Source: Candidatus Solincola daggyaiensis
GTDB taxonomy: Bacteria > Actinomycetota > Geothermincolia > Geothermincolales > RBG-13-55-18
Length of the DNA: 39,114 bases
Direction of reading: 5' to 3'
NCBI GenBank assembly: GCA_015711825.1
Contig: JACVJD010000020.1
Coordinates: forward strand, 1-39,114
In this document: one piece after another, positions 7,471 to 10,425 of the stretch
Layout of the letters: each line of letters begins with the position of its first letter
Position numbering within the stretch: position 1 is the first letter of the stretch
Notes under the pieces: model-generated
Told to the model about the DNA's origin: nothing
The model's database searches: none
The model's input: only the letters and a program-made list of their open reading frames with translations
Position numbers and translations under genes: made by a program

Positions 7471-8292
7471 ATGCTGGCGTACGGGTTCGCGCAGCGGGCG
7501 CTGGTGGGCGGGGTGCTCATCGCCCTGGTGTGCTCGCTCATCTCCTTCTTCGTGGTGGTGAGGCGGCTGGCCTTCGTGGGCATGGGCATATCCCACGCCG
7601 CCTTCGGGGGAGTGGGCATCGGGCTAGCGGCGGGGATCGACCCCCTCCTGGCCGCCGGCTTGTTCTGCGCCGCCGTGTCCCTGGGCATAGGCTGGTTCAG
7701 CCGTCGGGGGAGGGTGCACGAGGACACGGTCATAGGCATCCTCTTCGCGGCGGCCATGGCCCTGGGAGTACTGCTGGTGCGCCTGGCCAAGGCCTACAAC
7801 CTGGACCTCATGAGCTACCTCTTCGGCAGCATCCTTGCCCTGAGCTGGAGCGACGTCTCGGTAATAGCGGTGGTCGCCGCCCTGGCCTCCGCGTTCGTGA
7901 TCCTCTTTTTCAAGGAGTTGCTCTTCATATCCTTCGACGAGGAGACGGCAGCGGCCAGCGGCCTGCCGGTGAGCTTCGTATATTACGGCCTGCTCGTGGT
8001 CATGGCCGTCACCATCGTGGTCTCCATCAAGTTGGTGGGAATAGTGCTGGTATCCGCGCTGCTGGTGATCCCGGGGGCGGCGGGGATGCAGGTGTCCCGC
8101 AACTACCGGGGGGTGCTGGCGGTCTCGCTGACGGTGGGGGTTTCCTGCGTGACGCTGGGTCTCTACCTCTCGTACTGGTTCGACGTGGCCTCGGGGGCGG
8201 CCATCGTTCTCACCCTCTTCGTCGCCTTTCTTGCATGCATGGCTTTTTCGCCCCGGAGGGCGTACATGAGGCGATGGAGGCGCGAAAGGTGA
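7471..8292 (+). CDS. znuB: Zinc ABC transporter permease
   Basis: Multi-TM ABC-3 family: RRLAFVGMGISHAAFGGVGIG, VVVSIKLVGIVLVSALLVIPGAAG; immediately follows znuC. Confidence 0.92.
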   Translation: MLAYGFAQRALVGGVLIALVCSLISFFVVVRRLAFVGMGISHAAFGGVGIGLAAGIDPLLAAGLFCAAVSLGIGWFSRRGRVHEDTVIGILFAAAMALGVLLVRLAKAYNLDLMSYLFGSILALSWSDVSVIAVVAALASAFVILFFKELLFISFDEETAAASGLPVSFVYYGLLVVMAVTIVVSIKLVGIVLVSALLVIPGAAGMQVSRNYRGVLAVSLTVGVSCVTLGLYLSYWFDVASGAAIVLTLFVAFLACMAFSPRRAYMRRWRRER

Positions 8293-8439: not shown

Positions 8440-8466
8440 AGGCGGCGAATACGCTGCCGCCTTTTG
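8440..8466 (+). terminator. Intrinsic terminator after znuB
   Basis: AGGCGGC-GAATACGCT-GCCGCCT followed by TTTT. Confidence 0.65.
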
Positions 8467-8479
8467 TCTCCGTGGCCCG

Positions 8480-8509
8480 TTGAAGGCGTCGCGCATCCTG
8501 GGCTATACT
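8480..8509 (+). promoter_or_regulatory. Sigma-A type promoter for pyrG
   Basis: TTGAAG (8480-8485), 18-bp spacer, TATACT (8504-8509); predicted start in GAGAGGGAAA near 8514-8516. Confidence 0.65.
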
Positions 8510-8593
8510 GAGAGGGAAATAAACGACGGCGACGACGAGGACGGGAGGTGACCGGCTATAGAAGGGCCGGAGGAATCCCGGGAAAACTCAACA

Positions 8594-8629
8594 CGGAATC
8601 CCTGACCGGTAGGGATTCCGTCTCTTTTT
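8594..8629 (+). terminator. Leader terminator upstream of pyrG (candidate attenuator)
   Basis: CGGAATCCCT-GACCGGT-AGGGATTCCG, perfect 10-bp stem followed by TCTCTTTTT; lies between the promoter and the pyrG start. Confidence 0.85.
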
Positions 8630-8784
8630 AGAGAATACAGCTTTGGGAATGTCGCCGCAGGCGGTCGGAGGAGGGGATACCGTGGGACGCCGCGCGTGCC
8701 CGCGCGAGGCGGGCGGTTCCCGAACAGGGTTCCCTTATCGGGCCGGGGATCGCAGGAAGCCGAGGAAAGGGGAGGTATGAGGAA

Positions 8785-10425
8785 ATGCCGGTAAAATATA
8801 TCTTCGTGACCGGAGGGGTGTCGTCCTCGCTGGGGAAGGGGATCACCGCGGCATCCATCGGAAGGCTCCTCAAGGCGCGCGGCCTCAAGGTGACCATGCA
8901 GAAGATGGACCCCTATATCAACGTGGACCCGGGGACCATGAACCCCTTCCAGCACGGAGAGGTGTTCGTCACCGACGACGGCACCGAGACCGACCTCGAC
9001 CTGGGCCACTACGAGCGCTTTGTCGACGAGCACCTGGGGAGGGAGAACAACGTCACCACCGGCAGCGTTTACTGGTCCATCATCTCACGCGAGCGCAAGG
9101 GGGAGTTTTTGGGGGGCACGGTGCAGGTGATCCCCCACGTAACCAACGAGATCAAGGAGCGTATCCTGCGCCTCACCCGCTCCAGCGAGGTGGACGTGGT
9201 GATCACCGAGATAGGGGGCACGGTGGGGGACATAGAGAGCCTGCCCTACCTGGAGGCGATCCGGCAGTTCAAGAAGGACGTCGGCCCTGAGAACGTCATG
9301 TATATTCACGTGAGCCTGGTGCCCTACCTCGAGACCACCAAGGAGATGAAGACCAAGCCCACCCAGCACAGCGTAAAGGAGCTGCGCTCCATGGGCATCC
9401 AGCCCGACGCCATCGTGTGCCGGTCCAAGGAGCCCATCGGAATGGACCTCAAGGACAAGATATCCCTGCTCTGCGACATCGACATCGAGGGCGTGATCTC
9501 CGCGCACACCGCGGACTGCATTTACGAGGTTCCTCTGCTCCTGCACGCGGAGGGGCTTGGCGACTACGTGGCCAGGCACCTGGGGCTGGAGGGACACGAG
9601 GAAGACCTCTCGGAGTGGGAGGAGATGGTGCGCAGGATAAAAGCCGCCTCCCAAAGGGTGAGCATCGGGGTGGTAGGGAAATACGTGGACCTCTCCGATG
9701 CCTACCTTTCCATCATCGAGAGCCTGCAGCACGGCGGCTACGCCCACGGCGCGCGCGTGGAGATCGCGTGGATAGCCTCCGACGATATCACCCGCGAGAA
9801 CGTGGGGGAGCTCCTGGCGGGGCTGGACGGCATCCTCATCCCGGGCGGCTTCGGGGTGCGAGGGGTGGACGGAAAAGTGGAGGCCATACGCTACGCGAGA
9901 GAGAGCCGCGTGCCCTTTTTCGGCATCTGCCTGGGGCTGCAGTGCGCGGTCATCGAGACGGCCAGGAACCTGTGCGGCCTGGAGAAGGCCAACAGCTCGG
10001 AGTTCGATCCCGCCACCCCCCACCCGGTCATCGACCTCCTGCCCAGCCAGCGCGACGTGGACGAGATGGGGGGGACCATGCGCCTGGGGCTCTATCCCTG
10101 CAAGCTTGAAGAGGGCTCCCTCGCCCATGCCTGCTACGGAGAGGAGGTTATCTACGAGCGTCACCGCCATCGCTATGAGGTGAACAACCACTATCGCAGC
10201 CAGCTCCAGGAGGCCGGCCTGGTCTTCTCCGGGCTCTCCCCCGACGGACGGCTGGTGGAGATAATCGAGCGCAGGGACCATCCCTGGTTCCTGGCCGGGC
10301 AGTTCCACCCCGAGTTCAAGTCCCGCCCCAACCGCCCCCATCCCCTCTTCCGGGATTTCGTCGCGGCGGCCCTGAGGCGCAGGGCGGGGCTGGAAGAAGC
10401 GCCCAATCTCAAGGTGGTGGGCTGA
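8785..10425 (+). CDS. pyrG: CTP synthase
   Basis: [64 protein letters not shown]-terminal GATase [15 protein letters not shown]. Confidence 0.98.

Follow-up and report, generated by a model that had tools for sequence, protein, structure and literature searches.

Attenuation of the CTP synthase gene pyrG has been described in Bacillus subtilis, where the leader carries an intrinsic terminator and a GGGC start at which transcription slips (Meng et al. 2004, as cited in PMC4448216). Another pyrimidine gene attenuator, that of Escherichia coli pyrBI, works through UTP-sensitive coupling between transcription and translation of the pyrL leader (PMC5021804), and it is known from experiments that ribosomes near a terminator suppress termination (PMC4824070; PMC5021804). 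The pyrG leader of Candidatus Solincola daggyaiensis belongs to the same gene as the B. subtilis attenuator and has an intrinsic leader terminator as well, but it has no GGGC at the predicted transcription start and no conserved run of G, and carries a leader ORF instead. With pyrBI it shares a pyrimidine gene and an ORF led by a strong Shine-Dalgarno (SD) sequence into an intrinsic terminator, an arrangement that is present, at the level of sequence, in 13 of 13 related leaders; in both, translation itself, and not particular codons, would prevent termination. It differs from pyrBI in serving a CTP synthase gene, in its AUA, AUC or AUU start, in the shortness of its ORF and in a fold that covers the SD in one group of leaders (class A), and also because a U-tract precedes the pyrBI hairpin, whereas the pyrG leader has no U-rich pause tract. 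Since none of the 13 leaders has, ahead of its terminator, a tract at which the polymerase would pause for one particular nucleotide, we regard the pyrG leader as one that would work like pyrBI, and not as a member of that system. Our preferred reading, to which we give a probability of about 0.6, is that it is a translation-coupled transcription attenuator in the pyrBI manner, with a short leader ORF that has a weak start.

The window, which is the whole stretch of 39,114 nucleotides analysed here, contains pyrG on the forward strand (8785–10425, ATG at 8785; Pfam CTP_synth_N, E 4e-128, plus GATase), with an SD sequence GGAGG (8771–8775) located 9 nt ahead of the start. All other features of the leader are on the same strand. 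The promoter, TTGAAG-18-TATACT (8480–8509), comprises TTGAAG at 8480–8485, an 18-nt spacer and TATACT at 8504–8509, and was both read directly and identified by a promoter scan as the sole plus-strand promoter-like site near pyrG. The scan found no such site on this strand between 8630 and 8784, the interval in which, according to the earlier note, a promoter driving pyrG would speak against attenuation. The predicted +1 lies at about 8514–8516, a position that was deduced from the -10 box and may be off by a few bases, at the beginning of a purine-rich, T-poor segment (8514–8543) that opens with GGGAAA (8514–8519). From promoter to terminator the leader measures about 80 nt, and its folding z-score is -2.2. 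The intrinsic terminator (8593–8629) is formed by a 12-pair stem (8593–8621) followed by CUCUUUUU, with GGAATCCC (8595–8602) as 5' arm, GGGATTCC (8612–8619) as 3' arm and a T-run at 8625–8629; the terminator scan gives the tail of this stem as CTCTTTTT. The perfect hairpin and T-run of the earlier note are real, the stem reaching one base further at both ends than the 8594–8620 it had given, and direct reading also located its promoter, GGGAAA, CCGGC hairpin (8552–8570) and two copies of GGAATCCC where it had placed them.

The 1 kb scanned holds three terminator-like sites, where shuffled sequence would give 0.6, and the decisive test of whether the element could be due to chance is its conservation in the family. 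We compared the leaders of 13 members of one family of the class Geothermincolia (Actinomycetota), consisting of Ca. Solincola and relatives from genera g1, g2, g4, g5 and g6, with the genome studied here included and Candidatus Solincola MAGs among the named members. All 13 retain the promoter, the terminator and a similar leader length: the relatives, too, have a TTGAA-like/TATACT pair ahead of the leader, and the arms and T-run recur ahead of pyrG, with GGAATCCC and GGGATTCC invariant in the 13 leaders and nearly so in a genome of a second family (L017). The invariant blocks of the alignment are GG-GUGA-CGG--AU, GGAAUCCC, AGGGAUUCC and a CUC-U tail, and the conservation of the terminator arms exceeds what a plain terminator would require. 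In every one of these genomes, a covariance model built from the 13 leaders recovers the copy at pyrG; beyond pyrG it gave no convincing match in them, except a degraded remnant in one (G014). Judged from this layout common to 13 family members and from an essentially pyrG-only covariance model, the leader is a real attenuator, as had been proposed from the single sequence. The family also conserves the bases after the terminator U-run (8622–8636, AGAGAAUA), which are able to pair with the preceding UCUCU. A helix between the SD and the CUC tail, proposed by RNAalifold, was rejected, as it shows no covariation.

Downstream of the promoter, and leading into the terminator, there is a ribosome-binding site followed by an open frame; the earlier note mentions neither. 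The SD sequence GGAGGUGA (8544–8551) pairs perfectly, 8 of 8, with UCACCUCC at the 3' end of the genome's own 16S rRNA; its GGUGA is invariant in the 13 leaders, and the variant GGGGUGA of three g4 leaders makes one G-U pair with the anti-SD. The AUA codon at 8558–8560 follows GGAGG by 9 nt, a spacing identical to that of pyrG's own ATG, and would open a putative ORF (8558–8605) encoding I(M)EGPEESRENSTRNP, whose UGA stop (8603–8605) stands immediately 3' of the terminator 5' arm. The start codon is AUA in 11 leaders, AUC in one (L007) and AUU in one (L008), and in none is it AUG. Entry into the AUA frame from upstream is blocked by a UGA within GGAGGUGA that is in frame with AUA. A GUG frame inside GGAGGUGA was also considered and discarded, as a proper SD is missing ahead of it and stops close it early in eight leaders.

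The AUH frame is free of stops up to the terminator 5' arm in 13/13 leaders, and the remaining two frames are closed in 14/26 (a Fisher test, run with 13/26, gives p = 0.0013). Shuffling of the spacer gives a probability of 0.002 that all would be open, provided that the leaders are independent, and the AUH frame stays open even though, owing to indels, all three phases between start and arm occur among the leaders; some leaders have two open frames. In the first eight codons of class A, about 9 of 13 minimal changes fall at third positions (binomial p = 0.009), a figure that comes from a hand count on the codon table and is confounded by structure. The leader peptide is not conserved past the first codons, and the leader codon lists have no shared repeated codon of the kind that forms the run of one amino acid's codons in trp-type attenuators. 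Genome-wide, the combination of SD and AUA is not enriched (40; reversed control, 57). Because the AUA frame drew attention only once the data had been inspected, and because related leaders cannot count as independent observations, the frame statistics are suggestive rather than overwhelming.

The best-known case of IF3-sensitive start codons is infC, which in E. coli starts with AUU. In the genome studied here infC reads AAGGAGG-GATGCCAG-ATA-GAA-AAG at the expected start of the protein (L122, minus strand, about 2003–2020; G000:C2), and in the other family members with a readable start it has AUA behind GGAGG, or AUC in g3. The start codon of infC is followed by GA, likewise in the class A leaders. 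It therefore seems that this family does use AUA, preceded by a strong SD, to start at least one protein-coding gene. In Staphylococcus aureus, ribosome profiling has assigned AUA or AUU starts with strong SD sequences to infC, ccpN and cvfC1, and reporters of ccpN, cvfC1 and citZ reach about 10–30% of the efficiency of AUG (PMC13009471). The pyrG leader has the same features at sequence level, namely an AUA, AUC or AUU start that is conserved as non-AUG and a strong SD, and the family's own infC begins with AUA or AUC; however, in infC the codon opens the regulator's own gene, whereas here it opens an ORF before a terminator.

From the promoter, terminator, SD, conserved open frame and conserved non-AUG start, which the sequences show, we infer translation of the ORF, an effect of the ribosome on the hairpin and a signal. 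Transcription from 8480–8509 would yield an RNA with a strong ribosome site (8544–8551) and a weak start codon (8558–8560). A ribosome starting at AUA close behind RNA polymerase would cover the 5' arm (8595–8602) as the 3' arm emerges, the hairpin would not form and the polymerase would proceed into pyrG. Without initiation, or with a lagging ribosome, the hairpin would form and transcription would stop near 8629. In this genome, a ribosome terminating at the stop codon 8603–8605 would sit on the 5' arm and the loop, and in this genus the SD-covering fold could reduce initiation further.

The likeliest signal is a low level of CTP that slows the polymerase and lets the ribosome catch up, which is physiologically sensible for pyrG. 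The 13 leaders contain no U- or C-rich pause tract ahead of the hairpin, the only C-run common to them being the CCC of the 5' arm, a weak pause tract for the sensing of CTP that might explain the strong conservation of the arms; their T content is 7–18%, and T-runs are absent in nearly all. The second candidate signal is initiation capacity or IF3, to which AUA, AUC and AUU starts are sensitive. Such a start may tie readthrough into pyrG to IF3 or to free initiating ribosomes, and hence CTP synthesis to translation capacity, a suggestion that we make tentatively and hold to be doubtful. If true, the attenuator would read start-codon fidelity, the check used by infC, and not a nucleotide or an amino acid. 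In the literature covered, with many subscription journals outside its scope, neither control of pyrG through translation of a leader ORF nor an attenuator whose leader ORF has a conserved start other than AUG was described. If the translation-coupled reading is correct, CTP control has been solved with different attenuators in different lineages, slippage in Bacillus and ribosome coupling here, and leader ORFs are overlooked wherever only ATG, GTG and TTG count as starts.

In class A (7 of 13 leaders) the ribosome-binding site lies within a local fold. Helix P1 (8542–8580) joins CGGGA (8542–8546) to UCCCG (8576–8580), covers part of the SD and encloses hairpin P2 (8552–8570), which pairs CCGGCU with GGCCGG, reads CCGGC-TATAGAAGG-GCCGG and has the AUA in its loop. 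The 39-nt P1/P2 block is very similar in g1, g2 and g6, so that P1, P2 and their internal loops could be taken for a riboswitch or a protein-binding RNA, an aptamer for CTP or another ligand to which the SD and the AUA would be incidental. The strong local fold of class A agrees with such an aptamer, as do terminator arms conserved in sequence in the way of a recognised RNA. We consider it unlikely, since the leaders of g4 and g5 are without P1/P2 yet have the SD, the AUH codon and the terminator, and the bases of the internal loops are variable (GGA, UGA, GUC). A search with Rfam covariance models (PyrR, T-box, riboswitch) returned no match at the gathering score and none that is relevant at E up to 10. 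Folding is stronger than in shuffled sequences only in the class A leaders, and a start-codon hairpin was for this reason rejected as a family-wide feature.

The extra copy of GGAATCCC (8572–8579) had led the earlier note to an antiterminator, in which this copy pairs with the 3' arm (8612–8619). Such a pairing would let the polymerase pass, under the control of some ligand or of P1. The 8-nt copy is indeed exact in this sequence, and the predicted fold has it paired with the 3' arm when the 5' arm is blocked, as a ribosome might do. Nevertheless, while the terminator is kept in 13/13 leaders, the duplicated arm is not general: it is exact in three (L002, L003, L013), imperfect in four (7/8 in L004, L007 and L009, 5/8 in L014) and absent from the other six, and it is not conserved outside class A. 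The antiterminator pairs can form in only 7–11 of 13 leaders and there is no compensatory change; the covariation between 8572–8579 and 8612–8619 that was looked for in the aligned leaders is absent because the 3' arm never changes. For this sequence the antiterminator alone is also much weaker than the terminator in predicted energy (-12.6 against -19.1 kcal/mol), and P2 with the antiterminator reaches -20.7, against -39.0 kcal/mol for P1, P2 and the terminator. In the class A copies the first three bases vary and AUCCC is constant, which includes the bases that pair with the CGGGA of P1. With these constant bases and with energies that favour P1, P2 and the terminator, the extra copy is most simply read as the 3' strand of P1, its 3' half forming with CGGGA a local helix (CGGGA/UCCCG) that closes over the ribosome-binding site, and an antiterminator becomes a poor candidate. 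Under the translation-coupled reading, folding predictions would allow the copy a possible accessory role once a ribosome covers the 5' arm, which is not general, because six leaders do not have it.

A plain terminator of the upstream ABC-transporter operon, with no regulatory role, is very improbable. The transporter gene does end upstream, at 8292, but it has a terminator-like site of its own at 8441–8458, and for this reason the 8593–8621 hairpin is assigned to the pyrG transcript; moreover, a conserved promoter lies in between, and L009, L014 and L017, with a different upstream sequence, keep the hairpin in front of pyrG. CTP-sensitive reiterative transcription in the B. subtilis manner, which the earlier note had already set apart from this leader, is scarcely credible in spite of the shared gene, the leader terminator and the one G-run near +1 (8514–8516), as this run is followed by A and not C and neither GGGC nor a conserved G-run is found at the predicted +1 of the 13 leaders.

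L017, the one genome of the second family, has an AUG-start leader ORF that runs through its nearly identical terminator, and L018, the one genome of a third family, has a related terminator; in the more distant class-level relatives (f4–f7) no such leader precedes pyrG. Two g3 leaders (L015, L016) have a different hairpin instead of the family terminator, and the leader frames of these two and of L018 are comparable to those of the family. Regarding second matches of the covariance model, the one in G014 (G014:C95, L132:217–333) consists of a degraded terminator that lies ahead of an alpha/beta hydrolase gene and lacks the SD/AUA element, and the others that were inspected were rejected as chance. 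The gene preceding the G014 site resembles the one that precedes pyrG in that bin (L009), and the degraded copy may be a remnant or come from a contaminating strain. In one g4 genome (L006) a near-tandem repeat, CTTTTAAAGAAT/CTTTTAAAGGAT, lies directly 3' of the terminator, before pyrG. In L015 and L016, from which the family element is missing, an ATG is found 8 bases past the -10 box and about 143 bases before pyrG, and possibly begins a leaderless ORF; this ORF runs into a strong hairpin, distinct from the family terminator, whose loop contains an SD-like run of purines.
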